Of a stretch of 63,295 nt of DNA, positions 2,120-63,201 are shown one piece after another (position 1 is the stretch's first letter; each line of letters starts with the position of its first letter). The notes under the pieces are model-generated. The model made no database searches and was not told where the DNA came from. It was given only the letters and a program-made list of their open reading frames with translations. This stretch comes from Bacillota bacterium (lineage in GTDB: Bacteria > Bacillota > Clostridia > Peptostreptococcales > Anaerovoracaceae): the NCBI GenBank assembly GCA_017431785.1, contig JAFRKJ010000011.1, positions 1 through 63,295 on the forward strand, in the 5' to 3' direction. The translations under genes were made by a program, and so were the position numbers.

Positions 2120-2130
2120 TCAAAAAACAA

Positions 2131-2156
2131 AAAAGGCTGCATTGCGCAGCCTTTTT
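2131..2156. terminator. Bidirectional terminator between mgtE and the crotonase gene
   Basis: A ten-base-pair stem AAAAGGCTGC / GCAGCCTTTT with a short loop, flanked by A-runs on the left and T-runs on the right. It can end mgtE on the plus strand and the nine-gene acyl operon on the minus strand. Confidence 0.88.
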
Positions 2157-2166
2157 ATGATGCCTT

Positions 2167-2943
2167 TTATTTGTTCTTGAATTCTGCTGGTCTCTTCTCC
2201 AGGAATGCTGTCGTTCCTTCTTTCATGTCCTCAGATGAGAAGGAAAGTCCAAAGGAGTTCACTTCCAGCTCTGAAGCAGACTTCATGTCCATATCGTAAC
2301 CGTTGTTGATGCAGTGTTTTGCAATTGCAACAGCAATCGGCGCCTTGCTCATGATTGTCTTTGCGAGAGCTTCGCATGCCGGAAGCAGTTCATCAGGTTC
2401 TACTACCTTCTCTACCAGTCCGATGCGTCCCGCTTCTTCAGCCCCAATCACTTCTGCAGAGTAGATCAGGTATTTCGCCATACCCTTTCCTACCAGTCTC
2501 GAAAGTCTCTGTGTTCCGCCGAATCCAGGAATGAGTCCCAGACCTACTTCAGGCTGACCGAACTTGGCCTTTGCAGACGCGATTCTGATATCACATGCCA
2601 TGGAAAGCTCACAGCCGCCGCCCAATGCGAAACCATTGACTGCAGCAATGACAGGTTTGCTGACATTTTCGATGAAATTCATCGTTCTGTGTCCTGCCTT
2701 TGCAAAATCTCTCGCTTCAATTGTGTTGAGTTTTGACATCTCTGCGATATCTGCGCCGGCAACAAAAGATCTGCCTTCACCAGTCAGAATAGCAACCTTA
2801 GCATCTTCATCTGCATCAAATGCTGCAAAAGCATCGTAGAGTTCACTGATGACTTTTGAATTCAGTGCGTTCAGAGCCTCCGGTCTGTTGACAGTTACGT
2901 AAGCAATTCCTTCTTTTACTTCGTATTTTAGTGTTTCATACAT
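2167..2943 (-). CDS. Enoyl-CoA hydratase/isomerase family (crotonase)
   Basis: A 258-residue crotonase-fold enzyme, full length for the family. The oxyanion-hole segments SFVAGADIAEM (about 59-69) and GFALGGGCE (about 104-112) are present, as are both glutamates of hydratases: Glu112 in GGGCELSM and Glu132 in GQPEVGLGLIPGFGG. It should therefore hydrate 2-enoyl-CoA, for example crotonyl-CoA to 3-hydroxybutyryl-CoA. It is the last gene of the operon starting near 11.26 kb, 45 bases after the LarA-like gene, and also has a possible promoter of its own (2988-3016). It could serve the butyrate pathway, with bcd-etfBA at 31-35 kb, rather than the LuxEC pathway. Confidence 0.9.
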   Translation of the reverse strand: MYETLKYEVKEGIAYVTVNRPEALNALNSKVISELYDAFAAFDADEDAKVAILTGEGRSFVAGADIAEMSKLNTIEARDFAKAGHRTMNFIENVSKPVIAAVNGFALGGGCELSMACDIRIASAKAKFGQPEVGLGLIPGFGGTQRLSRLVGKGMAKYLIYSAEVIGAEEAGRIGLVEKVVEPDELLPACEALAKTIMSKAPIAVAIAKHCINNGYDMDMKSASELEVNSFGLSFSSEDMKEGTTAFLEKRPAEFKNK

Positions 2944-2987
2944 GATTGATCATTCTCCTTTCATGTGATAATCATAATTCTCACTGG

Positions 2988-3016
2988 ATTATAACACAAT
3001 CCTGAACTCTTTGTCA
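2988..3016 (-). promoter_or_regulatory. Possible internal promoter for the crotonase gene
   Basis: On the minus strand TGACAA (3011-3016) and TATAAT (2988-2993) have a 17-base spacer and an extended -10 TG. It lies at the very end of the upstream LarA-like gene and could uncouple the crotonase from the rest of the operon. Confidence 0.45.
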
Positions 3017-4209
3017 TCCGAACAGAGTCCAAGCATGTTCGCTGATATTTCAATTTCAGACAAATGCAGTGTGTCTTTGATCCTTACGATTTTGGGATTA
3101 TCGATATCCGTCTGATGAGCGGTCTGGATGGCAGCGCGCAATGCCTCTTCCTCTGTTTCTGCAATGACAGGTATCCGGGCACCTTCCGGGTTCCCTGACG
3201 CCATGCCATTTGTATAAGTCATTCCCAGATCAACTTTCTCAAAAGCGCGCCGCAATATAAAATCAGCCATTCCGAATCCGATGGCATTTCCATGGGAATC
3301 TTCTGTCAAATCTTCGATAATGATGCGTTTCACGCGCGGAACAGCTCCGGGAATCTGTCCGTATGAATCCCTCCCGATAATATTTGGGTCCATTCCTGTT
3401 CCGCTTATATTCTTACCAATCTGTTCGACAATCAACACGTCCACATCATCGAATTTGATGCGCGGCATCAGGCTTCTGGCAAGATCAAGCAGTTCAGGTT
3501 CTCTTGAAAAGATCTCTGAACCTGGAATGGCTTCGATCGTATGGGGTTTATCAAAGGCATTTTCCACGATAGCAAGTGCAAATGGTATTTCCACCTTGTC
3601 GATGATGACGCCGGCCGCATCCGGAATGATGTGGGCAAGCGCCGGAAACCCTTCTCTATGCAATCTGGAACAGCCGTTATGTTTCCCCCCGCCGATAGCC
3701 AGCATCTTGCAGATGCCACTTTCAATCGGTCCGCTGAAATCGGTATGGGGTTTGACGCGGCATACAGGTATTACATAGTCGGCTTCCAGAGCAGGTTTTG
3801 AGAAATGAACCTCGATTCCTTCCGGCGTAAAACCGATCACTTCAGTATCCATGGAGGAGTTGATCGGAACGCCCATCGTTTCTTCTGTGATTCCATATGA
3901 TTTCAGGATTTCCTCCTGACCCTCGGAAGTTCCTCCACCATGGCTTCCCATAGCAGGCACAATGAAAGGTCTGATGCCTGATGCCAGCAGCGTATTCAAA
4001 ACCGTCTTCACGATGCTGTCAATATGCTGAATTCCCCTGCTCCCTGCAAGTACCGCAGCTGTACAGCCAGGTTCCATAGTTGCTGCTAACGGCAGAACTG
4101 CATTTCTGACAGACATTTCAACATCATCCAGATGATCATCCGGAAAGATCTGCTCTATCTTTACCATCTCAGGTAATTTGATTGTACGTACTGCTTCAGG
4201 AAGTCTCAC
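2989..4209 (-). CDS. LarA-like (DUF2088) nickel-pincer racemase family protein
   Basis: A 406-residue protein of the lactate racemase LarA superfamily. Visible family marks are MGSHGGGTSEGQ with His90, CRVKPHTDFSGPIESGICKMLAIGGGKHNG with His155, Lys168 and His177, and His184 just after. In LarA the equivalent His and Lys residues hold the nickel pincer cofactor and do catalysis. Known LarA proteins racemise lactate; relatives act on other 2-hydroxy acids, so the substrate here is open. The cofactor-making genes larB, larC and larE are not in the window. It lies 18 bases after the aldo/keto reductase, inside the acyl operon, which suggests a hydroxy-acid step or an unrelated passenger role. 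Confidence 0.78.
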   Translation of the reverse strand: MRLPEAVRTIKLPEMVKIEQIFPDDHLDDVEMSVRNAVLPLAATMEPGCTAAVLAGSRGIQHIDSIVKTVLNTLLASGIRPFIVPAMGSHGGGTSEGQEEILKSYGITEETMGVPINSSMDTEVIGFTPEGIEVHFSKPALEADYVIPVCRVKPHTDFSGPIESGICKMLAIGGGKHNGCSRLHREGFPALAHIIPDAAGVIIDKVEIPFALAIVENAFDKPHTIEAIPGSEIFSREPELLDLARSLMPRIKFDDVDVLIVEQIGKNISGTGMDPNIIGRDSYGQIPGAVPRVKRIIIEDLTEDSHGNAIGFGMADFILRRAFEKVDLGMTYTNGMASGNPEGARIPVIAETEEEALRAAIQTAHQTDIDNPKIVRIKDTLHLSEIEISANMLGLCSDDKEFRIVL

Positions 4210-4227
4210 GGGTTTCTCCTCTTGTCT

Positions 4228-5376
4228 CTATTTGCTGAACTGCTCTATTGCATCCGTCATGATATCTGAGATAGCAAGCCTTTGCGGACATTTTTCTTCA
4301 CATGCCCTACAGTGAATACATTTGGAAGCATGACCATCGAGCCATTCTAAATACTCGATTTTCGTGCTCGGAATCTTGTCAAAAGCATACCAGTTATTCA
4401 GATAGCGGATGACGTCCGGAATTTCAACTTCCTGTGGACAAGGCATGCAGTAACCGCATTTGGTGCACTGGTATTTGATTTTTCTATCGTACTCATCCGC
4501 AGCTTCATCGCATACTGCGTATTCAGCTTCCGACATTTTATTCATGTCATCCTCTGAAAAGATCTTAATGTTTTCATCCAGCTGAGCAAATGAATTCATT
4601 CCGCTCAATATCAGTGAAACACCCGGCTGACTTGCGACCCATTTGAATGCCCATTGTGCAGGCGTCCTTTCAGGTGGAGCGATTCCTTCTGCTGCAGCGC
4701 GGTCCCAGATAGCCTGCACGGAAGGCGGTACCTTATCTGACAGTCTCCCACCCTTCAGCGGTTCCATTATGATGACGTCAATATCTCGTTCCCGAGCATA
4801 TGCAAGGCCTTTCAAACCTGCCTGAATGTTCTTATCCAGATAATTGAGCTGAATCTGGCAGTATTCCCATGGATACTCGTCAATAACTTCTGTAAACAGA
4901 TCATAATCCCCGTGGAACGAGAAGCCGATGTGCCCGATGCGTCCCTCTTCCTTGAGCTTCTGAAGATGCCTGAATACATTGAACTTCTTGATTGGTTCCC
5001 ATACCTCAGGAACGATATTGTGTATGAGATACATATCAATATGGTCCACATCCAAACGCTTGAACTGTTCGTCAATGATTGGAAGAATATCTTCTTCCTT
5101 TTCGACAAGCCAGATCGGCAGTTTATCCGCAACCAGGACCTTTTCCCTATATCCATCCTTCAGTGCTTTTCCAATGATACGTTCACTGTCACCACCGTGA
5201 TATGTGTACCCGGTATCGATGTAGTTGACACCGTGATCGACCGCATATCTGATCAGATCGATCCCAGTCTTCTCATCCGCCTTTCCGTTTTCCAGCCTTG
5301 GAAGGCGCATCACACCCAGTCCCAGGAGTGATATCTCTTTATCAACGGATTTGAACTTTCTGTACTGCATTTGCAT
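4228..5376 (-). CDS. Aldo/keto reductase with C-terminal [4Fe-4S] ferredoxin domain
   Basis: A 382-residue fusion of an aldo/keto reductase TIM barrel (about 1-290) and a bacterial ferredoxin-like tail. The AKR residues are Asp54 and Tyr59 in YIDTGYTYHGG, Lys85 in VADKLP and the His of MYLIHN. The tail has CTKCGYCMPCP and CIHCRACEEKCP, ligands for two [4Fe-4S] clusters. AKRs reduce aldehydes to alcohols with NAD(P)H; the Fe-S tail may allow ferredoxin electrons. Its place 17 bases after the AMP-ligase gene, in the same operon as a LuxC-type aldehyde-forming reductase, makes an aldehyde-to-alcohol step plausible but unproven. This Fe-S AKR type is common in Clostridia. Confidence 0.87.
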   Translation of the reverse strand: MQMQYRKFKSVDKEISLLGLGVMRLPRLENGKADEKTGIDLIRYAVDHGVNYIDTGYTYHGGDSERIIGKALKDGYREKVLVADKLPIWLVEKEEDILPIIDEQFKRLDVDHIDMYLIHNIVPEVWEPIKKFNVFRHLQKLKEEGRIGHIGFSFHGDYDLFTEVIDEYPWEYCQIQLNYLDKNIQAGLKGLAYARERDIDVIIMEPLKGGRLSDKVPPSVQAIWDRAAAEGIAPPERTPAQWAFKWVASQPGVSLILSGMNSFAQLDENIKIFSEDDMNKMSEAEYAVCDEAADEYDRKIKYQCTKCGYCMPCPQEVEIPDVIRYLNNWYAFDKIPSTKIEYLEWLDGHASKCIHCRACEEKCPQRLAISDIMTDAIEQFSK

Positions 5377-5393
5377 ATTCCTTTCAAATACTT

Positions 5394-6668
5394 TTATAAC
5401 TTTGAATACAGGACTTTACCTGACGAGTTCCTCGGAATCTCGTCAAGATAATTCAATGTGACAAGTCTCGCACGGACTTGCCATTTATCCATAAACAGCT
5501 GGATGATTTCATCTTCTCTGTCGGCCACTTCCCGACTGCTTGTGTTCACCTTGATTCCGTCATCATCATTGCCGGTGCAGATGATTTCCTCGCAGTCAAA
5601 TGCTTCCTGCAGGATTTCCTGAACCTGATCCAGACTGAAGCGCTTGCCCTGCAGTTTCACAAACCGTTTTTTACGGCCGGTGATGTAGAAGTATCCTTCT
5701 TCATCCATGCGGGCCATATCACCTGTTTTCAGGCATCCTCCGTTGACATCACCGAGAGCCATGTCTTCGCGTTTTACAGCGTATCCCATAGAAACATTTG
5801 CGCCGAAGTAGATCAGTTCCCCATCTTCGGCGATGGCAAAACTGCCTCCTGGAATCGGAATGCCGATGCTGCCTATTTTTTCGATACATTTATCCGGCGG
5901 AATGTAGCTCATTCGAGCTGTAGCTTCCGTCTGCCCATACATGACGAAGAGCCTTCTGCCTGTTTCTGATGCCCAGTCTCCAAACTTCCTCTGTAATTCC
6001 TCATGCAAATGTCCGCCAGCCTGGGTGAGCGTCTTCAGATGCGGCAGATCCATCTCCCTGAGCCGCAACCGCTCGAACATTTCGTAGGTATACGGCACAC
6101 CCGCCATGGATGTAACTTCATATTTCTCAACCATCTCCCAGAATTCCTTCTGGAACAAAGTCCTGTTTGTCAGAATGATGGTCGCTCCCACCGCCACATG
6201 GGAATGAATCACGGACAATCCGTAAGTGTACTCCATGGGAAGAGTCGTGATTGGGCGTTCCTCTTTCGTCAGTCCCAGATATTCGACAATGGAATCACAG
6301 TTCGACTGTATGTTTGTATAACTCAATCGAACCAGCTTCCTGTCCCCGGTGCTCCCTGATGTTGAAAGCAAAAGCCCCAGTTCCGGATTGTATGGATACT
6401 CTCCTTCATAGGTGCTTTTCAACGCCTTCTTCGCGTCATCATCAAGGTCCTTTCCGATGAGGATCACCGGACATCCTTTCCGGAGCAGCGCCAGATATCT
6501 TGCAAGACTCTCCGCATCATTGGAACACTCCAAAACTGAGATTCCCCTGCAGTCTTTCGTCAGTGTATCTCCCAGATCCCAGATTTGCCCATACGTATAT
6601 TCCCTGCCCTCGTCATCGATGCAGATTATTCTGTCTCTGAATTCTTCATTTCGTTCAAAAAAGTACAT
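5394..6668 (-). CDS. AMP-dependent acyl ligase (ANL superfamily)
   Basis: A 424-residue adenylating enzyme, shorter than the usual 500-550 because the N-terminal lobe is reduced. Core motifs are complete: STSGSTG (102-108), YGQTEAT (244-250), TGD (315-317), GRKKR (331-335) and the catalytic Lys418 in RNSSGK. It should activate a carboxylate with ATP and pass it to a thiol, either CoA or the acyl carrier protein encoded four genes upstream. It starts inside the end of the LuxE-LuxC gene (43-base overlap), behind GGTGGAGATG, so translation is probably coupled. The substrate cannot be read from sequence. The lack of a large N-terminal lobe resembles small loading ligases of natural-product clusters. 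Confidence 0.85.
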   Translation of the reverse strand: MYFFERNEEFRDRIICIDDEGREYTYGQIWDLGDTLTKDCRGISVLECSNDAESLARYLALLRKGCPVILIGKDLDDDAKKALKSTYEGEYPYNPELGLLLSTSGSTGDRKLVRLSYTNIQSNCDSIVEYLGLTKEERPITTLPMEYTYGLSVIHSHVAVGATIILTNRTLFQKEFWEMVEKYEVTSMAGVPYTYEMFERLRLREMDLPHLKTLTQAGGHLHEELQRKFGDWASETGRRLFVMYGQTEATARMSYIPPDKCIEKIGSIGIPIPGGSFAIAEDGELIYFGANVSMGYAVKREDMALGDVNGGCLKTGDMARMDEEGYFYITGRKKRFVKLQGKRFSLDQVQEILQEAFDCEEIICTGNDDDGIKVNTSSREVADREDEIIQLFMDKWQVRARLVTLNYLDEIPRNSSGKVLYSKL

Positions 6669-8908
6669 GATAACATCTCCACCAGGTCCTTACGGTCCCA
6701 TACTGTATTGAAATCCAGGGCTTCACCGATTGCTGTGACCCTGTCAACGCCATCGCATTCTGCTGCGCGTATGCTTTCATAAAGTTCTGCCTGATCGCTG
6801 CCGCTGCTTACCATGGTTTGGATCTTGGCCTCCATGAACGGCAAGAGTTCATCCAATCCGCTGATCTCTTTTTCATAGAACAGACCAAAGCGTGCCGTAA
6901 GGTTTGTCAGGCTGCCTTTGTATTGTCCGCATGGCACAACGCAAAGTCTGTTGCCCCACTTTCTGACTGGACCCAAACCCTCATTTACGGCATAGGTTCT
7001 GCAGAGCATTCTGTATTTTTCCGTCGCCTTCCAAGGCTGCAGATCATAGGCGGCTGCTTCCTCTGCAACAGCATTCCACCACTTATCCTTGATTGCATCC
7101 ATATCCGCATTCTTACTGTCGCGCAGCCAGAATACCGTACGCGGGCTGGAGCAGGCATTCTGATCCGCTCCATAAGTGTCATTAAAAAACAGATGAGCCA
7201 AATGTCTGAAATCCCGATCCTCAAGAGCCTCAAAATCACTCTCTTTAAAGAGTGCGATAGAGTACTTATCCGGGAAGGTAATATCTGTACAATCATCTGC
7301 TTTCGGTATACTGCAGATGCTGCTGACGGTCTCATCGCCGCCCCATATGACTCTTGCCTTTGCCCTTTTCGATATGTCCTCGAGCAGCCTGTCTCCTCTC
7401 GGGAACGTGATGAAAGCATTCCGCTCACAGATCTCCTGAAACTCAGGACGACCCAAAACACTCTCGATTCCTCTTAGAGCCGCTTCTGTGATCTCATTTG
7501 TCCGTTCGGATATGCGGACGATATTCGGATTCCCGGCAAGCAGTGAGGTGATCCATGAATAAGCAAACATGGTCGGCATATTTGACGGTGCTATATGCAG
7601 TACAAGTCCTCTTCCTCGTCTGTTTTCACTCTTCCGGATTTTTTCGATATGGGCTCTGCGGCACCAGAATCCCAGTGCGTAAATCTCGGGATACTGTCTG
7701 TACAGAGGATCCTTCGTATAAAGTGTCGACAACGCTTCCAGAAAATCGATTGTTTTCTCTGCAAAAGCAGGACAAACTTTCTCCTGAACTGGATAACGGC
7801 CGGCCAGAATCTGCAGATTTCCATCTCCTGCACGTTCTGTTGACTTCATCTGTGCTGCAGCAGCTCCTTCAAAGGTATCACTGCATCCGCGCACTTCCGC
7901 TTTCTGGATTCTTCCGCTGATTTCAAAGTACTTGCCCTTTCTTCCGCATGGGCAGTCATCGGTTCCCAGTATTCTGCCCCAGTCCTCCGTAAGCAGTCTG
8001 TGTCCCGGATAGGATTTTGGAATCAGGGAATCCAAGGCGATCAGTCCCCACTTCCCCTCCTCGCATTCCGAGAAATCTTCCGGATCAAGTATGGAAATGT
8101 CTGAAAAAATGCTGGCATGCAGATGTCCTTCATTGCACTGCATAAATATGCTGCCTGTCTGCTCCGCCATACCATAGTAATCGCTGATACTTTCTATACC
8201 GCAGACTTCTCTCAATCCAGCGCGGAAGACCTCATCTGAAACACTTCTGTTCTGCAACTTCTTCCAACCGCCGCCGTGGATCAGATGGCATCCCGGCAGA
8301 TCAATTGTTGCGCCTTTTGCTCTAAGGGCTTCATAGAGATATTGCCAGATCATGTAGGTGAATCCGAATGCGAAGGTAGGGCCTTCTTTTGCCAGTTCCT
8401 GAAACAGTTCCAGAGATTCCATATCCAGATTCATATTCTCATCCAGTGCATAGATGCGTTTGGATGCCATCATGGAGAAGCCGAGAATTCCAGCACCTCT
8501 GGCCGTAAACTTACTTCTGTCTCTGAGTACATCCGGTGAATCGATGATGAGCATCGGAATGCGCCTGGAGCCGATGAAATCACCGGTGATGGCGCAGAGC
8601 GCCCTCTGCTGCAGTGCGGAAGTTTCCGCATCGAGATAGATCTTTGAGACCTGCTGCCCCGTCGTCCCTGACGATGTGATTTTTCTTATGATTTTTTCCT
8701 CCGGTACACTTTTGAGATCTGTATCTTTGAACAGTGAAACCGGAAGATAAGGACCGTTCTCATGCAGCCCATTGCAAATATCATCGTAAGCTTTGCAAGC
8801 AGTACGATGATAATCTGTCATTTCATTCATTTGTTCCCTGTAGAAGGAATCCTTCTCTTCCTGCGGGATACTGAAGGGTTCCAGTTCCAGAAATTCATCA
8901 CGGGTCAT
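6626..8908 (-). CDS. LuxE-LuxC fusion: acyl-protein synthetase plus acyl reductase
   Basis: A 760-residue natural fusion. Residues about 1-355 are LuxE-like (ANL fold): KITSSGTTGQQ at 77-87, HGGGWKK near 211 and YGMAEQTGSIF at 245-255. Residues about 365-745 are LuxC-like: HIAPSNMPTMFAYSW near 438, IWGGDETV near 521, and QNACSSPR with the probable acyl-accepting Cys586. In luminous bacteria LuxE activates a fatty acid and hands it to LuxC, which reduces it with NADPH to an aldehyde; here both are one chain. There is no luxA, luxB or luxD nearby. It shares an ATGA overlap with the hydrolase gene upstream and overlaps the ligase gene downstream, so it is the core of the operon. Luminescence is not implied. 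Confidence 0.88.
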   Translation of the reverse strand: MTRDEFLELEPFSIPQEEKDSFYREQMNEMTDYHRTACKAYDDICNGLHENGPYLPVSLFKDTDLKSVPEEKIIRKITSSGTTGQQVSKIYLDAETSALQQRALCAITGDFIGSRRIPMLIIDSPDVLRDRSKFTARGAGILGFSMMASKRIYALDENMNLDMESLELFQELAKEGPTFAFGFTYMIWQYLYEALRAKGATIDLPGCHLIHGGGWKKLQNRSVSDEVFRAGLREVCGIESISDYYGMAEQTGSIFMQCNEGHLHASIFSDISILDPEDFSECEEGKWGLIALDSLIPKSYPGHRLLTEDWGRILGTDDCPCGRKGKYFEISGRIQKAEVRGCSDTFEGAAAAQMKSTERAGDGNLQILAGRYPVQEKVCPAFAEKTIDFLEALSTLYTKDPLYRQYPEIYALGFWCRRAHIEKIRKSENRRGRGLVLHIAPSNMPTMFAYSWITSLLAGNPNIVRISERTNEITEAALRGIESVLGRPEFQEICERNAFITFPRGDRLLEDISKRAKARVIWGGDETVSSICSIPKADDCTDITFPDKYSIALFKESDFEALEDRDFRHLAHLFFNDTYGADQNACSSPRTVFWLRDSKNADMDAIKDKWWNAVAEEAAAYDLQPWKATEKYRMLCRTYAVNEGLGPVRKWGNRLCVVPCGQYKGSLTNLTARFGLFYEKEISGLDELLPFMEAKIQTMVSSGSDQAELYESIRAAECDGVDRVTAIGEALDFNTVWDRKDLVEMLSCTFLNEMKNSETE

Positions 8909-9552
8909 TTTGTCTCACCCTCCTGACCTTTGATGTAGGTAGCCCCGTGTCCCGGATGAATGATTACTCCATCTGGGATTCCATTGATGATAGGCTCCGT
9001 AATCTTCACAAAATCCTCTTCACTGCCGCCGCGAAGCCTCAGAGTCGTCTCTTCATTGAAGAGCATGTAATCCCCTGTAAAATAATGATCTCCGTCCAAA
9101 ATGATGAGCACACCGCCCGGGGAGTGTCCCGGTGCTTCAATAAATGCAAACTGATGACCCCTCCACTGAAGTTCATATTCGCCCACGAAAGTGATTTCTG
9201 CTTCTCCACACACAAACCGTGGAGATTTTTCTTCTGAAACCACACCAGTCTTATAGTACGAAAGAATGTCCTCAATGATAGAAAGATTTGTCTTGGGGTC
9301 CCCCAGTCTTTCGCTGCACAGTTTGCTCGCGACTACTGGTATGTTGTATTTACTGCGCACAGCTTCCAGATCCTGCACATGATCAAAATGTTCATGTGTC
9401 AGAAGAATATATTCCGGTGTGTAGCCTTTGCTGTCTATTTCTGTTTCAACAACGCCATCCTGACCCGGGTCTATAATCACAACAAAACCACCCTCTTCTA
9501 TGAGATAACTGTTGCAGATGGTTTTTGTCGATGTGAGTTTAGTGATATTCAT
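8905..9552 (-). CDS. Metallo-beta-lactamase-fold hydrolase (glyoxalase II-like)
   Basis: A 215-residue MBL-fold protein with all zinc ligands: THEHFDH (His53, His55, Asp57, His58), EAPGHSPGG, the Asp of FTGDYML and IHPGHGATY. Length and layout match glyoxalase II-type thioester hydrolases. In this operon it may remove acyl groups from the carrier protein or from CoA, as an editing or release enzyme; that role is inferred from position. It overlaps the acyl carrier protein stop by one base and the LuxE-LuxC start by four, so the three are tightly coupled. Confidence 0.86.
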   Translation of the reverse strand: MNITKLTSTKTICNSYLIEEGGFVVIIDPGQDGVVETEIDSKGYTPEYILLTHEHFDHVQDLEAVRSKYNIPVVASKLCSERLGDPKTNLSIIEDILSYYKTGVVSEEKSPRFVCGEAEITFVGEYELQWRGHQFAFIEAPGHSPGGVLIILDGDHYFTGDYMLFNEETTLRLRGGSEEDFVKITEPIINGIPDGVIIHPGHGATYIKGQEGETK

Positions 9553-9797
9553 TATTCGTCGAAGTTGACACCGTACTTTTCGGACAGAATTCTGATACCC
9601 TTCTCGTAGGTGGAAAGGTCCAGTACATCCTTCGTATCCATCTGAATTCCGTATGCTGATTCGATATCAGCGATCAGGTCCATATGGCCGACGGAATCCC
9701 ACTGGATGATGCCCATGTATTCAAGACCCGGAAGGTCTTCTTCTTTTACTCTGAAATTCAGCATGAATGCTCTCTTGTACTGTTCAAGATTTGTCAT
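9552..9797 (-). CDS. Acyl carrier protein
   Basis: An 81-residue acyl carrier protein. The phosphopantetheine site is Ser35 in WDSVGHMDL, followed by the typical helix II-III pattern LIADIESAYGIQM. It differs from primary-metabolism ACPs, which have DSLD, so it is probably a dedicated carrier for this operon. A carrier lying between a hydrolase and a MaoC-type enzyme, with a ligase and LuxE-LuxC downstream, suggests that the pathway works on ACP-bound acyl groups. The phosphopantetheinyl transferase needed to activate it is not in the window. Confidence 0.9.
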   Translation of the reverse strand: MTNLEQYKRAFMLNFRVKEEDLPGLEYMGIIQWDSVGHMDLIADIESAYGIQMDTKDVLDLSTYEKGIRILSEKYGVNFDE

Positions 9798-9845
9798 TTT
9801 CGTTCCTTTCTTATGTTAATAATAATTGCGTATTGTCTTCGTTCG

Positions 9846-10289
9846 TTATTCGATGACCTCAAAAAACCGTTTCAGAAGAAGCTGTTTGCATGTTGCTTCT
9901 GCAACGGTGATCCCATCCTGATTAAAGCACATCCCTTGCAGCGATGCGATATAGTATTTTTCTTTCTCCTCTACGGATTCAAGAACCACTCTGGCTGTGA
10001 CTTCATCCCCGGGATAAACAGGATTCGTGTACTTGCAGTCCATTTTCTGAAGAACAGTGCCATGCCCCGGAAGTTTCGTCCCCATAACGGAAGAAATCAG
10101 ACTTCCCACAAAAACACCGTGCACGACCGGACGTCGGAACAGACCTCTGCGCGCTAATTCCGCATTCGTATGCATCCCGTTGTCATCCAGCGTAAGTCTG
10201 GCAAATTCGTCTATATCATCTTCCGTAAATGACTTTGTGAGCTCCGCACTGTCCAGAAGATGCAGCACGCGCTTTTCATGATTATCCAT
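9846..10289 (-). CDS. MaoC-like (R)-enoyl hydratase
   Basis: A 147-residue hot-dog-fold protein of the MaoC family. The hydratase signature is present as LTLDDNGMHTN, giving Asp35 and His40, then RRPVVHGVFVGSLIS. Such enzymes hydrate trans-2-enoyl thioesters to (R)-3-hydroxyacyl thioesters or the reverse. I place the start at the ATG of MDNHEK because AAGGCGGA sits correctly before it; an upstream ATG in frame (at 10331) has no such site. It lies between the E2-like gene and the ACP gene with about 50 bases on each side, and no terminator is visible. Acting on the neighbouring ACP is a reasonable inference. Confidence 0.85.
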   Translation of the reverse strand: MDNHEKRVLHLLDSAELTKSFTEDDIDEFARLTLDDNGMHTNAELARRGLFRRPVVHGVFVGSLISSVMGTKLPGHGTVLQKMDCKYTNPVYPGDEVTARVVLESVEEKEKYYIASLQGMCFNQDGITVAEATCKQLLLKRFFEVIE

Positions 10290-10339
10290 AATGTTCCGCC
10301 TTGTTTTTATTCCAGTATCAGTATACCACAAAACCCTTC

Positions 10340-11218
10340 TCAGTCTATATCTTCCACGACCTTTTCAGGTGGTTCATCCAGTTGATACGGATCGCTGAAG
10401 TACCGTTTCATCTTCCTGAAGGCAGTCGCATAATAGTAACCGTCAACGATCCTCTCATCTGTTGAAATAGTGTAATCCAGATACATTTTCCTGACGATTT
10501 CCCCGCTTCTGTCGATTTCATATTCCGTCCTCTTGGGACCGATCGCACAGAATATCGGTACATTTCCGAAACTGTAAAGGTGATGGAATATCGGCGGAAT
10601 CCCAAGAGATCCCATGGAAGTGATGAAGAAGCTGCCGTGGAAAGGGCTCACATCCAAAAGCGACTTCGGAAGCCATCCGAAATAATCCAGCAATTTCAGA
10701 AACCAAATGGAGAATTTGAAGAAGAGTTTCGGGAATTTCGCCAGGGTGCCTGCAACGGAATCAAAATCACTGTCGCCTTCACTATTCTTCTCTCCATCGA
10801 TGACTTTCTTCATCTTGCGATAGACATCTTCTGCGGTGTCTTCAGGGCTGAGGATAATTTTGACGCAGGTATTCGGTGCCTCAAGGGTCATCTCTTTTTT
10901 GATATCGATATTCACCTCGATCCTGTCTCTGGCATACACCCTCTGCCCAGAGACAAACCTGTTTACCGCAGGCATCTGTGATGCAACTCTGACATAGGTC
11001 GCAACCATGAAATGCATCAGTCCGAATCCTGTCAGACCTTCTTTTCTTTTGGCTTTGATATACTCTTCAGTCTTTGAGATTTCAACCTTGTCCTGTATAT
11101 AGTTGGTAGCTCCAGTTCTATCGACAAGTATGAACGTCTCAACTACACTCATTGGTTCACGCGTACGGAGCAATCTGCCGTCTTTACGATCACCAAGTTT
11201 TTTCTTTCTGCTTTCCAT
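10340..11218 (-). CDS. E2-type acyltransferase catalytic-domain protein without active-site His
   Basis: A 292-residue stand-alone relative of the 2-oxoacid dehydrogenase E2 catalytic domain (CAT-like fold), with no lipoyl or peripheral-binding domain. Family marks include FGLMHFMVATYVRVASQMPAVNRF, FFITSMGSLGIPPIFHHLYSFGNVPIF and the C-terminal STDERIVDGYYYA. In active E2 proteins this last motif reads DHRxxDG; here His is replaced by Glu255, so normal acetyl-transfer chemistry is unlikely. A hydrophobic, aromatic-rich stretch (about 163-184) might bind membrane or a fatty chain. It is the first gene of the acyl operon, with an AGGTGGG ribosome-binding site. It may be an acyl-binding or altered-chemistry protein. 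Confidence 0.75.
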   Translation of the reverse strand: MESRKKKLGDRKDGRLLRTREPMSVVETFILVDRTGATNYIQDKVEISKTEEYIKAKRKEGLTGFGLMHFMVATYVRVASQMPAVNRFVSGQRVYARDRIEVNIDIKKEMTLEAPNTCVKIILSPEDTAEDVYRKMKKVIDGEKNSEGDSDFDSVAGTLAKFPKLFFKFSIWFLKLLDYFGWLPKSLLDVSPFHGSFFITSMGSLGIPPIFHHLYSFGNVPIFCAIGPKRTEYEIDRSGEIVRKMYLDYTISTDERIVDGYYYATAFRKMKRYFSDPYQLDEPPEKVVEDID

Positions 11219-11260
11219 TCTATGCCCACCTGTAAATGATTGTGCGCACCCCTTACGAAA

Positions 11261-11269
11261 AGTATACCA
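11261..11269 (-). promoter_or_regulatory. Promoter of the LuxE-LuxC/ACP operon
   Basis: On the minus strand an extended -10 element TGGTATACT lies about 40 bases before the first gene; the -35 region (CTGAAT) is weak, as usual for extended -10 promoters. It comes directly after the terminator of the preceding operon. Confidence 0.55.
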
Positions 11270-17386: not shown

Positions 17387-17824
17387 CTACTCATCCTGCC
17401 CGGTTTGTGCTAGATATCTGATTGCCTCCCGATATCCTTCAAACCCTTTTCCTTTGATCATTTTCTCTGCAAAAAGGGAAACATACGATGTCTTTCTGAA
17501 GGTTTCACGGTTTTCCGTATCAGTCAGATGGACTTCCACAGTTGGAATGTCCACTGCTTTCAAAGCATCCAGTATCGCAATGCTCGTGTGCGTATAGGCA
17601 CCGGCGTTCAAAACGATCCCGTCCGCTTTCTGGTAAGCCTGCTGTATCCAGTCTACAATATCTCCCTCATGATTGGACTGATAGATATCCCCTTCCACAC
17701 CGGCTTCTTCAAAAGCCGCCTTGATAAAAGCAACCAGATCTTCATAGGTCTGCCGACCGTATAGTTCAGGTTCTCTGATTCCGATCATATTCAAGTTCGG
17801 TCCATTGATAACAATGATTCTCAT
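17387..17824 (-). CDS. aroQ: 3-dehydroquinate dehydratase, type II
   Basis: A 145-residue type II dehydroquinase, which converts 3-dehydroquinate to 3-dehydroshikimate. The start MRIIVINGPNLNMIGIREPELYG holds the conserved Asn residues and catalytic Tyr22; NAGAYTHTSIAILDAL and PTVEVHLTD carry the other conserved segments, including the catalytic His. It is the last gene of the holA-transporter-aroF-fusion-aroQ run, nine bases after the fusion gene, and so supplies the step just before the AroE part of the fusion. A dehydroquinate synthase (aroB) and an EPSP synthase (aroA) are not in the window. Confidence 0.95.
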   Translation of the reverse strand: MRIIVINGPNLNMIGIREPELYGRQTYEDLVAFIKAAFEEAGVEGDIYQSNHEGDIVDWIQQAYQKADGIVLNAGAYTHTSIAILDALKAVDIPTVEVHLTDTENRETFRKTSYVSLFAEKMIKGKGFEGYREAIRYLAQTGQDE

Positions 17825-17833
17825 TTCTTCTTC

Positions 17834-20419
17834 CTATCTGTTTCTGATCATTTCCGCGATTTCTGCTGCGGTTTGTTCCGGAGTCTTTCCGCTGACGTTC
17901 ACTCTGATGTCGCTCCAAAGCTCATAGTTGTCTTTTCGTCTGTCAAATACAGCCTGCAGCCCATCCATCTGAGAAACAGGACGGCCCTCTGCAGAAAGCT
18001 CCGCCAGGTCTCTTTCCAGATAAACTGATACGCTGTTCTCAAGCAAAGGCACCATATTCTCTTCCCTTTCAACACACCCGCCTCCTGCAGCGAATACGAT
18101 TCCGGACGAAGTGCCCTCTGCATCAGGTTTTTTTCTCATAACCTTCCTGATGATTGCGGATTCAATGCTGCGGAAATAATCAACACCTGTTTCCATGATG
18201 ATTTCCCCCGCATCACATCCATAGATATCTCTGATCATCTCGTCGCAGTCAACAAAACGCTTTCCCGTCAGTTCTGCCAGAATCCTTCCTGCTGTCGTCT
18301 TGCCGCAGCCCGGCATTCCAATGAGCACAATGTTCTCGATTTCCCCAATCAGCTGACTGCAGGCAAGCTGTGTTGCATAAGCTGTATCCATCTCCTTTCC
18401 CAAGAAGAGCTGGCTTGCCTTTGCTGCTTGCGCCGCAAGCATATGAAATCCGCCGAACGCCTGGATTCCCGCCTTGCGCGCATCCAGCATGAGCTTTGTC
18501 CGCAGCGGATTGTAGATGAGATCGAAAACAGCTTCGCATGCAGGAAAATCCCGAATATCAATAACTGCCTGTCCGGCATTTGGATACATTCCAACAGGTG
18601 TTGTATTCACAATGATCCGTGCATCCGCATGTTTGTTCAGATTCCCATAGTGATTGCTGCCTTTTCTGGAAATCACGATGACCGGATCTGCTCCCAAGTC
18701 TTCCAGCACCTTTACGACCGTTCCGGAGACGCCGCCGCTGCCGAGAACGATTGCCTTTGCATCCTTCACATTTACATCGGATTCTTCCACAGTCCGCAGA
18801 AATCCGTAGTAGTCCGTATTATCACCATAGTAGGTTCCATCGTCACATTTCACGATGGTGTTCACACTGCCGCAGCGACGTGCCCTGTCGGACAGCCGGT
18901 CGCAGTATTTCATGACCTCTTTTTTGTATGGCATGGTGACAGTAATACCCCTGAAAGCTCCTTCTCTGAAGAACGTGTCCAATTCTACTGGCTCGCGCTC
19001 AAAGAGTCCGAACTCATAACCGCCGATTATTTTGTGGACCTGAGGAGAATAGCTGTGTCCAAGCTTCCTTCCGAGCAGACCGTATTCGATCCTGTTATCG
19101 TGCTGATATCTTCTGCTCTGTGCCATAATTTCCTTCATCACCTCTGTGACATATGATCTTTTCTCTTTGTCGCAAAGGCTTCCCAGTTTGTCCGTTTTCT
19201 CTTTTTCTCTGGCAGCATCCAGAACAGGAAGACCGTTTTGCTCTTTGAATCCAGCAATGTCTTTCACAACATCAAAACGCTTCCCCAGCAGTTCTGTGAT
19301 TTCCTCATCAATGGTATCAATCTGATTCCTGAAATCTCTCAGATCTTCCGGCGCACGTTCTTCCAGCAGCATATCAAATACAGCGATTGCAGCTGCTGCC
19401 TCGATACACGGAACTGCCCGTGGAACAATACAAGGATCATGTCTGCCGATAATCTTGAGTTTCGCAGGCCTCATATGATCAAGATCGACGCTGTACTGCT
19501 CTTTTCCAATCGATGGAGTCGGTTTTATCGCTGTCCGGAACACAACGGGCATGCCGGATGCCAGCCCGCCCAGTATGCCTCCGTGGTTGTTCGTCCTCGT
19601 GACGACTTTTCCATTTCTTATTTCAAAAGGATCATTGTTCTCAGAACCCTTCATTCTTGCCGCAGCAAATCCTGCGCCGAATTCAATTCCTTTCACGGCG
19701 GGAACAGCAAAAACAGCCTGACATATCCTGCTCTCCAGACTGCCGAATACAGGCTCGCCCAAACCAGCAGGGATTCCCGTAATCATGCACTCTACGATTC
19801 CTCCTATGGAATCCTCATCCCCTTTTACTCCCGCGATCAGCTCCTTCATCCACTCGCCGGCAACGGAATCTACGACCGGGAAGTCATCTTCCACATGGCT
19901 TTCTGCTGTAAGCGCCGCATCCTTGACATCTCCAATAGCGTAAATATGGGCTTTGACCGCAATGCCTTGCTTCTGAAGCCACTGGAGGCAGAGACCCCCT
20001 GCCACACAGAGAGGCGCGGTCAATCTGCCGCTGAACGAACCTCCGCCAGGTTCGATTTCACCGTACTTCACCCATGCCGGATAATCAGCATGAGATGGTC
20101 TTGGCACAGCAACCATATCTTCGTAATCCGACGGATGTGCATCGGTGTTTTCGATCTCCGCTTTAATCACCCCTCCATCTGTGATATAGCTGCCATCTTC
20201 TTTCTCTGTTACGCCCGAGATGAATTGCGGTCTGTCCTTCTCTTTCCTTGACGTGGACCAGTCCTTTGTCCCGGGCGCCCTGCGGTCAAGGAACTGCTGC
20301 AAAACGGAACCATCAAAAGAAAGTCCTTCCGGAACGCCGTCTATTCTGACTCCGATGTTTGGCCCGTGGGACTTTCCGTATAATTCAATCTTTAGTTTTT
20401 CCCCAAAAACGGTTGTCAT
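17834..20419 (-). CDS. Four-domain shikimate-pathway fusion: AroC-chorismate mutase-AroE-AroK
   Basis: An 861-residue fusion of four enzymes. Residues about 1-355 are chorismate synthase: GKSHGP with His18, RRAPG, RPSHADYP with His110, NNHGGILGG and IIGRHDPC. About 357-440 are an AroQ-fold chorismate mutase, starting LRDFRNQIDTIDEEITELLGKR. About 444-690 are shikimate dehydrogenase: GHSYSP, TMPYKK with Lys499, GDNTDYYGF and the NADP loop GSGGVSG at 560-566. About 695-861 are shikimate kinase: P-loop GMPGCGKTT at 701-709, the Asp of FVDCDEMI, and AAGGGC. All four active sites look intact. The order differs from fungal AROM, which has no chorismate synthase or mutase. It is joined to aroF by a TGATG overlap. 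Confidence 0.93.
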   Translation of the reverse strand: MTTVFGEKLKIELYGKSHGPNIGVRIDGVPEGLSFDGSVLQQFLDRRAPGTKDWSTSRKEKDRPQFISGVTEKEDGSYITDGGVIKAEIENTDAHPSDYEDMVAVPRPSHADYPAWVKYGEIEPGGGSFSGRLTAPLCVAGGLCLQWLQKQGIAVKAHIYAIGDVKDAALTAESHVEDDFPVVDSVAGEWMKELIAGVKGDEDSIGGIVECMITGIPAGLGEPVFGSLESRICQAVFAVPAVKGIEFGAGFAAARMKGSENNDPFEIRNGKVVTRTNNHGGILGGLASGMPVVFRTAIKPTPSIGKEQYSVDLDHMRPAKLKIIGRHDPCIVPRAVPCIEAAAAIAVFDMLLEERAPEDLRDFRNQIDTIDEEITELLGKRFDVVKDIAGFKEQNGLPVLDAAREKEKTDKLGSLCDKEKRSYVTEVMKEIMAQSRRYQHDNRIEYGLLGRKLGHSYSPQVHKIIGGYEFGLFEREPVELDTFFREGAFRGITVTMPYKKEVMKYCDRLSDRARRCGSVNTIVKCDDGTYYGDNTDYYGFLRTVEESDVNVKDAKAIVLGSGGVSGTVVKVLEDLGADPVIVISRKGSNHYGNLNKHADARIIVNTTPVGMYPNAGQAVIDIRDFPACEAVFDLIYNPLRTKLMLDARKAGIQAFGGFHMLAAQAAKASQLFLGKEMDTAYATQLACSQLIGEIENIVLIGMPGCGKTTAGRILAELTGKRFVDCDEMIRDIYGCDAGEIIMETGVDYFRSIESAIIRKVMRKKPDAEGTSSGIVFAAGGGCVEREENMVPLLENSVSVYLERDLAELSAEGRPVSQMDGLQAVFDRRKDNYELWSDIRVNVSGKTPEQTAAEIAEMIRNR

Positions 20420-63063: not shown

Positions 63064-63084
63064 AAAAACGCAAAAAAAGAAATA

Positions 63085-63201
63085 AGCGGCAACGTCTTGC
63101 TTTCCCAGGAGGTCGCCCTCCAAGTATCATCAGCGCTAAGGAGCTTAACTTCTGTGTTCGGTATGGGAACAGGTGTGTCCTCCCCGCTATAGTCACCGCA
63201 T
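63085..63201 (-). rRNA. 5S ribosomal RNA
   Basis: About 117 bases on the minus strand with the universal core: GCGGTGACTATAGCGGGGAGG at the 5' side (shown in parts), CACCTGTTCCCATACCGAAC and GAAGTTAAGCTCCTTAGC in loops B-C, and GACGTTGCCGC at the 3' end pairing with the 5' end. The ends are estimated to within a few bases from this terminal stem. Confidence 0.93.

Follow-up and report, generated by a model that had tools for sequence, protein, structure and literature searches.

A LuxE-LuxC gene set with its own acyl carrier protein in gut Clostridia: a candidate luciferase-free route from acid to aldehyde

What might the aldehyde-forming proteins of the lux system be doing in an organism with no recognisable luciferase? 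The question is raised by a stretch of 63,295 nucleotides (contig JAFRKJ010000011.1, positions 1 to 63,295, of GenBank assembly GCA_017431785.1; the whole stretch is referred to as the window) from a member of the Anaerovoracaceae (Bacillota; Clostridia; Peptostreptococcales), in which nine minus-strand open reading frames (ORFs) at 2167-11218 include a LuxE-LuxC fusion gene together with genes for a MaoC-type hydratase, an acyl carrier protein (ACP), a metallo-β-lactamase (MBL)-fold hydrolase and an AMP-forming ligase. The aldehyde-forming part of lux is generally considered in connection with light or, in published work, with flagellin glycans. Uncultured gut Clostridia conserve the version described here, which has no recognised glycan genes and which lies beside 4-hydroxybutyryl-CoA dehydratase in other lineages of the phylum. 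Our working hypothesis, which is tentative and to which we give a probability of about 0.45, is that these core genes encode a luciferase-free acid-to-aldehyde module, a reductase resembling LuxC-LuxD-LuxE with its own carrier and with a short acid, probably C4, as its substrate. An earlier interpretation made from the letters of the window (the sequence-only reading) had proposed that an operon of nine genes encodes a carrier-dependent conversion of an acid to an aldehyde. All nine ORFs are indeed present and the proposed route fits the residues of LuxE, LuxC, ACP and MBL and the MaoC match described below. The luciferase noted as missing is also missing more widely, as Bac_luciferase (PF00296) gave no match in the assembly from which the window comes (81% complete, 5.24% contamination).

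Conservation of the core gene order

The five core genes lie in the following order in the direction of transcription, families having been assigned by Pfam and NCBIfam.

9846..10298, minus strand: MaoC-type (R)-hydratase/dehydratase (PF01575, 62 bits)
9552..9797, minus strand: dedicated ACP of 81 aa (Ser35 in WDSVGHM)
8905..9552, minus strand: MBL-fold hydrolase, GloB-like, proposed acyl-ACP thioesterase (PF00753, 67.8 bits)
6626..8908, minus strand: LuxE-LuxC fusion of 760 aa (PF04443, 147 bits; PF05893, 84.9 bits)
5394..6668, minus strand: AMP-forming ligase, proposed ACP loader (PF00501, 115 bits)

Overlaps of 1-43 bases had been noted among the nine genes; they are real, but occur only between those for ACP, MBL, LuxE-LuxC (LuxEC) and ligase, the intergenic gaps from the first gene (E2-like) to the last (crotonase) being 41, 48, -1, -4, -43, 17, 18 and 45 bases. 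Since no other neighbours overlap, tight coupling is confined to this four-gene segment. The families named in the sequence-only reading are those found here, with three corrections: the E2-like protein has Glu in place of the catalytic His, the LarA-like protein belongs to NPN isomerase group 22, and the ACP lies below the Pfam cut-off.

The core, complete or partial, was found in 24 of the 49 genomes of the genus (G000-G048), with ACP in 20 of these 24 loci, MBL in 21, LuxE in 22, LuxC in 23 and the ligase in 22, and every miss of these genes falls at a contig end; the fragments left at such ends include G002 and G042, with only the end of LuxC, and G047, with only LuxE. MaoC is present in 17 loci, and five of its misses are likewise at contig ends. 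In the genus search (tally 48/100), LuxEC was not scored for weak matches to LuxE only (E ~1e-8 to 1e-3, PaaK-like), and G006, in which LuxE and LuxC are split and group with the glycan type (see below) of G655, from another genus of the family, was excluded from the 24. Sixteen contigs of metagenome-assembled genomes are labelled as Clostridia, Clostridiales, Firmicutes or Bacillota, and several of the labels name the jejunum of roe deer or goat or horse faeces.

Family f80, distant from the genus, has this order too: 9 of its 17 genomes encode LuxE, and the genes run NifU-MaoC-ACP-MBL-LuxE-LuxC-ligase-RpoN-sigma54 activator (no RpoN match in G738). The core from MaoC to ligase is present in eight of these nine genomes, and the ninth is represented by a 4.7-kb contig that reaches from MBL to ligase. 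In altered form the order is also found in two further genomes, G967 and G986, which are described below. The core order is therefore conserved beyond chance, within the genus and in f80. Separation of the genes in relatives was the outcome that the sequence-only reading had named as speaking against it, and the ACP-MBL-LuxEC-ligase block proved to be conserved. LuxE itself is rare: at E <= 1e-12, PF04443 was matched in 20 of 398 genomes of the phylum and 12 of 297 of the order, and a fused LuxE-LuxC at E <= 1e-20 in 15 of 291 genomes of the class, the window's own genome being included in each count.

Phylogenetic analysis took in 17 of the 24 genus loci, and these 17 rows form one clade (100/100) both in the LuxE tree and in a tree of LuxE, LuxC and ligase combined. 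The three-protein tree covers 35 of 42 rows (it omits G379 and G867b, together with five more genomes that are without one of the three proteins); it was built under LG+G4 with no mixture, with warnings on sequence make-up for 12 of the 35 rows and with two long rows.

Conserved residues and a proposed route

The ACP was identified by its serine motif and by the match of a profile to solved ACPs rather than by Pfam, where it has no hit at 0.001 and stays below the PP-binding cut-off (15.9 against 20.8 bits). Ser35, which lies in a DS motif and had already been singled out from the window, is invariant in 25 of 25 rows drawn from all set types, and the profile built from these rows matches solved ACPs with a best E of 4.2e-5. 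The same genome also has a gene for an AcpS-type transferase. Within the fusion, LuxE occupies approximately residues 10-347 and LuxC begins at about 384; an alignment of 15 rows (of 17, L014 was left out as a precaution and L018 as partial) keeps LuxE Cys342 and LuxC Cys586 in every row, and all 13 rows of a wider alignment keep Cys586. Cys342 aligns with the Cys at chain position 364 of LuxE in PDB 7xc6, and Cys586 with that at chain position 285 (counted here) of LuxC in the same structure, Cys-286 reportedly being named as the LuxC acylation site in the title of a LuxC study that PMC8301110 cites. All 17 aligned rows of the MBL protein share H53, H55, D57, H58, H143, D161 and H202, and its nearest solved relatives include glyoxalase II / hydroxyacylglutathione hydrolases, i.e. 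thioesterases. The MaoC protein resembles 3-hydroxyacyl-thioester dehydratase 2 (HTD2; PDB 3ir3, E 2.4e-18) and PhaJ (PDB 1iq6, E 1.1e-17).

From these features we infer a route in which the AMP-forming ligase would load a short carboxylic acid onto the dedicated ACP, MaoC would hydrate or dehydrate the acyl group carried by the ACP (2-enoyl/(R)-3-hydroxyacyl), and the MBL hydrolase, in the role of LuxD, would free the acid beside LuxE. LuxE would then adenylate the acid and take the acyl group on Cys342, from which LuxC would accept it on Cys586 and reduce it to the aldehyde. The direction of the route, like its substrate and product, is read from the genes and their neighbours, and the likeliest class of substrate is a hydroxy or enoic acid with four carbons from the 4-hydroxybutyrate/crotonate pool. 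Many relatives, though not every one, have an aldo-keto reductase (AKR) or an iron-dependent alcohol dehydrogenase (Fe-ADH) that might reduce the aldehyde further; the alcohol that had been proposed as the end-point is thus plausible and not universal, because no AKR is present on sequence continuing past the ligase in G007, G015, G018 and G021, and Fe-ADH stands in its place in G010.

The nearest functional model is the LuxC-LuxD-LuxE reductase, with which the window set shares the LuxE and LuxC families, their aligned cysteines and, as proposed, a hydrolase freeing acid from ACP. LuxD is described as taking the acyl group from acyl-ACP and releasing the acid (PMC8301110). The window set differs in having an MBL rather than the LuxD fold, a fused LuxE-LuxC, an ACP and ligase of its own and a MaoC step, and no luciferase match was found in its assembly; it would work like LuxCDE, yet is not a lux operon. 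Among the nine proteins there was no Pfam match to a LuxD-type alpha/beta-hydrolase, the rest of the genome not having been searched for LuxD. In two relatives outside the genus the proposed steps appear to be served by other folds: G986 has a FabA-like part (PF07977, 58 bits) in place of MaoC, and G988 has a PF00975 thioesterase (103 bits) directly upstream of its LuxE-LuxC fusion, where the MBL gene sits in the window. Such like-for-like swaps support an ACP-bound 3-hydroxyacyl/enoyl step and a release of the acid. The sequence of adenylation, carrier and reductase is also the logic of the carboxylic acid reductases (A-PCP-R), from which the core differs in being made of separate proteins and in having LuxC in place of their reductase domain.

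LuxE is fused to LuxC in G799, G867 and G988 as well, and in the tree these are placed apart from the genus. In G799 and G867 (L144-L147) one cluster holds both a fused and a split LuxE/LuxC pair, separated by about 10 kb, and between the pairs lie genes that we labelled by eye as DRE-TIM aldolase-like and ThDP-enzyme-like.

Four-carbon acids, surface glycans and other explanations

The reading of a short acid as the probable substrate is drawn from the set's neighbours elsewhere, which are genes for four-carbon acids. In f80, G967 and G986 a gene for 4-hydroxybutyryl-CoA dehydratase lies 27-4351 bp from the core in all 10 loci that reach far enough. The dehydratase of one f80 locus (L102) matches PDB 1u8v, from the fermentation of γ-aminobutyrate (GABA) and 4-hydroxybutyrate, with an E of 1.3e-234; eight more share 78-97% identity with the L102 protein, with which BLAST also groups that of L101. 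No such dehydratase was present at the loci of nine other LuxE/LuxC genomes, further LuxE loci not having been tested; a Fisher test of this linkage (10/10 against 0/9) was not used, as it treats related genomes as independent. Between its FabA-like domain and the ACP, G986 has a CoA-transferase and a DUF1097 gene, and the CoA-transferase of L102 has butyryl-CoA:acetate CoA-transferase as its best NCBIfam match, below the cut-off. Adjoining this CoA-transferase, in several f80 genomes, are two proteins with no Pfam or NCBIfam match (L102:15925-17424 and 17461-18072, plus strand).

A further tie to the 4-hydroxybutyrate system comes from the hydratase itself. Six hydratases were aligned (four of the eight from f80, with those of G967 and G986), and in all six an N-terminal CGGCN-type domain is fused to the MaoC or FabA-like part; in L101 and L102 this CGGC protein is the extra domain on MaoC, and neither has a MaoC-ACP fusion, the ACP being a separate overlapping ORF. 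The window's own genome (G000) encodes a free-standing protein similar to this domain:

L176:6493-6777, plus strand: stand-alone small CGGCNP protein (no NCBIfam match)

Its gene sits between a dehydratase and a CoA-transferase, and the protein is 38% identical (48.5 bits) to the fused domain. The occurrence of the CGGC protein in fused and separate form ties the set's hydratase to the 4-hydroxybutyrate system, and the protein is possibly an accessory factor of the dehydratase. The surrounding cluster is one of two near-duplicates on other contigs of G000 (L175 on G000:C57, L176 on G000:C51), each with a permease, NifU, dehydratase, CoA-transferase and Fe-ADH; one of them may derive from a second strain, given the 5.24% contamination of the assembly. 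With such clusters in the genome, a C4 pool probably exists in the organism. The known GABA/4-hydroxybutyrate cluster thus adjoins a homologous set, with the CGGC domain in common, in f80, G967 and G986, whereas the two are unlinked at the genus loci read. The chemistry of that fermentation is CoA-based and needs neither ACP nor LuxE/LuxC.

Several observations weigh against the C4 acid-to-aldehyde hypothesis. Two genus genomes, G015 and G021, are without MaoC on readable sequence that has ACP to ligase intact, and the homologous set of G967 is without MBL, so that the MaoC and MBL steps would have to be dispensable or served in trans; moreover, membership of the MBL family does not fix a thioester bond as the target. 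The dehydratase was not seen at the genus loci, and its co-occurrence with the LuxEC set in the genus is at background (18/24 against 19/25, p = 1, counting PF11794 at E <= 1e-20 with fragments included). The genus showing no such association, the C4 reading is one carried over from other lineages, and the 10 linked loci represent only three of these. The well-studied LuxE and LuxC proteins use long chains, and two ATP-using activations per turn would make a costly fermentation route. At one genus locus (L016:15608-16300, plus strand, G032) an acyl-ACP thioesterase family gene (PF01643, 39 bits) directly follows the crotonase gene and could indicate longer chains.

In related sets LuxE and LuxC, ACP, ligase and mostly a short-chain dehydrogenase/reductase (SDR) lie beside glycan or flagellin genes. 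We call these glycan-type, a label taken from the neighbouring genes that also includes G379, without clear glycan genes. NeuB and a DegT aminotransferase adjoin the set in G165, flagellin and a polysaccharide deacetylase in G098, LicD in G655, GT2 in G887, and NeuB, Polysacc_synt_2 and GNAT in G102, whose set has an MBL and no SDR. Among the 36 plasmid records, of which three were opened, a Deinococcus set lies with glycosyltransferases and a Rhizobium set with transketolase halves, a glycosyltransferase and FabZ; a Ponticoccus set has no annotated glycan genes in the stretch read. In print, ACP, LuxE, LuxC, ligase and FabG occur together in Aeromonas group II flagellin-glycosylation islands (PMC7874193), the same gene group occurs in islands of Enterobacteriaceae, with FabZ in addition in one strain (PMC4875605), and a LuxE-LuxC-ACP-ligase-FabG set in a flagellin-glycosylation island of Dickeya (PMC7575072); a liposugar part of the glycan is suggested in the first two, and the available parts of the three papers report no LuxE/LuxC assay. 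A LuxE-LuxC-ACP-ligase set without luciferase is, then, already known, and the statement in the sequence-only reading that no described system with this exact gene set was known is not supported as put; the variant with a hot-dog dehydratase and MBL, or a link of LuxE to 4-hydroxybutyrate, was not found among the matches listed from open-licence PMC literature. The window set might, as the sets of the flagellin islands are thought to do, provide a surface glycan with an acyl or acyl-derived component, the glycan genes then lying elsewhere; this seems to us unlikely. It has ACP, AMP-forming ligase, LuxE and LuxC in common with those sets, but also has MaoC and MBL, and no SDR/FabG, which the printed glycan sets carry, was recognised by Pfam among its nine proteins. 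No glycan gene was found among the 24 genus-locus ORFs and three window flank ORFs scanned, other neighbours not having been scanned; the set is flanked here by an oxidoreductase resembling formate dehydrogenase (FDH) and NuoF and accompanied elsewhere by 4-hydroxybutyryl-CoA dehydratase. Seven of the eight glycan-type rows, moreover, form a separate group in the tree (98/99). Forcing all 27 metabolic-type rows together costs 0.08 log-likelihood units (p-AU 0.48), so that their single origin is not rejected, being compatible with the tree rather than proven by it. The row nearest the genus in the LuxE tree is the glycan-type G102, with its MBL (92/82, not starred), and descent from a glycan-type ancestor is accordingly possible.

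If LuxE and LuxC had kept their classical substrate, the set might instead provide ether lipids (plasmalogens) with their long-chain fatty aldehyde or alcohol. LuxC, LuxE and LuxD are given as long-chain fatty-acid reductase subunits in PMC8301110, LuxC is named a long-chain acyl-protein thioester reductase in the PDB, and the thioesterase of L016 would be in keeping with this; we regard such a role as quite improbable, as that thioesterase is the only lipid-synthesis gene recognised among the neighbours scanned, the MaoC protein resembles PhaJ and HTD2, and C4 enzymes adjoin the set in f80, G967 and G986. A similarly low probability attaches to the reverse direction, in which LuxC would oxidise an aldehyde (e.g. 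succinate semialdehyde from GABA), with LuxE and the ligase recovering ATP or acyl-ACP. It would avoid the ATP consumption of the reductive direction, and GABA-aminotransferase-like genes, below NCBIfam cut-offs, do lie with 4-hydroxybutyrate genes in G743 and in one of the two G000 clusters (L175, on G000:C57). The Fe-ADH and AKR neighbours fit reduction, however, and we know of no precedent for LuxE/LuxC running oxidatively. It is very improbable that the genes share no pathway and are together by chance or for transcription only: the E2-like, LarA, AKR and crotonase genes do vary between loci, but all genus loci that no contig end interrupts retain ACP to ligase, and distant f80 shows the order again.

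Should the acid-to-aldehyde hypothesis hold, a carrier-based route of acid reduction would be added to anaerobic C4 metabolism, and the six-protein system would offer a small test case for the roles of LuxE and LuxC outside bioluminescence. The combination of dedicated ACP, loader, dehydratase, thioesterase and LuxE/LuxC is a candidate rule that could guide the annotation of glycan islands. A fuller version of the hypothesis, in which a C4 acid would be moved from CoA metabolism to a private carrier, acted on by a hot-dog hydratase, released by MBL and reduced by LuxE-LuxC to a C4 hydroxyaldehyde and then to a diol, within the gut fermentation of amino acids and butyrate and with the role of LuxD filled by different folds in different lineages, is rather doubtful as a whole.

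Variable genes, promoters and flanks

The remaining features of the locus are as follows.

10340..11218, minus strand: E2-like acyltransferase-fold protein (PF00198, 33 bits)
4228..5376, minus strand: AKR with C-terminal 4Fe-4S domain (PF00248, 151 bits; Fer4_9, 36.8 bits)
2989..4209, minus strand: LarA-like nickel-pincer isomerase, GTG start (NCBIfam NF052515, NPN isomerase group 22)
2167..2943, minus strand: crotonase, a short-chain enoyl-CoA hydratase (PF00378, 239 bits)
11261..11269, minus strand: extended -10 promoter TGGTATACT 5' of the E2-like gene, from a reading of the sequence
2988..3017, minus strand: separate crotonase promoter, sigma-70-like, ATGACA-18-TATAAT plus TG (11/12 consensus match, extended -10)
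2130..2156, minus strand: strong intrinsic terminator (12-pair stem, T tail)

We rejected the view of the locus as a single unit of nine genes, and with it the nine-gene pathway operon, as AKR is found in 15 of the 24 genus loci, crotonase in 12, the E2-like gene in 9 and LarA in 8, counts that partly reflect contig truncation. Among these loci the E2-like protein is confined to close relatives. In 8 of 8 aligned rows its catalytic His is replaced by Glu255 (ExxxDG), where PDB 1b5s has His; HxxxDG being the active-site motif of E2 acyltransferases, the protein is probably not a normal acyltransferase. The AKR is proposed to be an accessory aldehyde reductase. The LarA-like protein, the product of a lineage-specific neighbour, scores 502 bits against a cut-off of 400 for NF052515, and the same genome has a LarC-type gene (PF01969). 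The available parts of two LarA papers (PMC7583248, PMC12611868) hold no match to 'group 22' or 'LarAH22'. Downstream of the ligase, two genus genomes (L013 and L018) have, instead of LarA group 22, Fe-ADH and a different LarA homologue, and L018 also has a malic-enzyme relative there by BLAST grouping; these downstream genes hint at hydroxy-acid metabolism. L013 has in addition a gene for a DcuC-type C4-dicarboxylate carrier about 6 kb upstream.

Promoter-like sites in the window are at shuffle level (14 against 13.6 +/- 3.8), so that the argument for promoters is based on conservation and not on counts. Five of eight close loci (the window, L004, L006, L008 and L009) have TGnTATACT at the site 5' of the E2-like gene, which supports this promoter, and the other three (L003, L005 and L007) have the variant AGTATATA. 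The single promoter originally proposed is therefore upheld as a site and not as the only one: a better site precedes crotonase, and another, a candidate from the window sequence alone, lies before MaoC at 10347-10320 (9/12 match, extended -10). The crotonase promoter was examined in 12 loci, and TGnTATAAT is kept in the closest eight, despite differing upstream genes (LarA, an EamA transporter or AKR); of the four more distant loci, L011 has TTGACA-18-TAGAAT, L051 has a weak site further up, and L010 and L016 have none at threshold. Crotonase had been included in the pathway, a role that we rejected: having its own promoter in close relatives and being the only full-length copy in the assembly (the next matches score 45 and 43 bits), it is most likely its own transcription unit, serving ordinary butyrate metabolism. 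The single final terminator was correctly recognised, at 2156-2130; terminator-like sites in the window are somewhat above shuffle level (13 against 7.9 +/- 3.2).

The nine genes are flanked in the window by MgtE, the FDH-like molybdopterin oxidoreductase and NuoF. The oxidoreductase lies upstream of the set in 13 of the 24 genus loci, and most of the others end before reaching that gene; G045 has about 7 kb of upstream sequence without it. An Rfam scan of the window gave one match at the gathering threshold, near the window end:

63084..63200, minus strand: 5S rRNA

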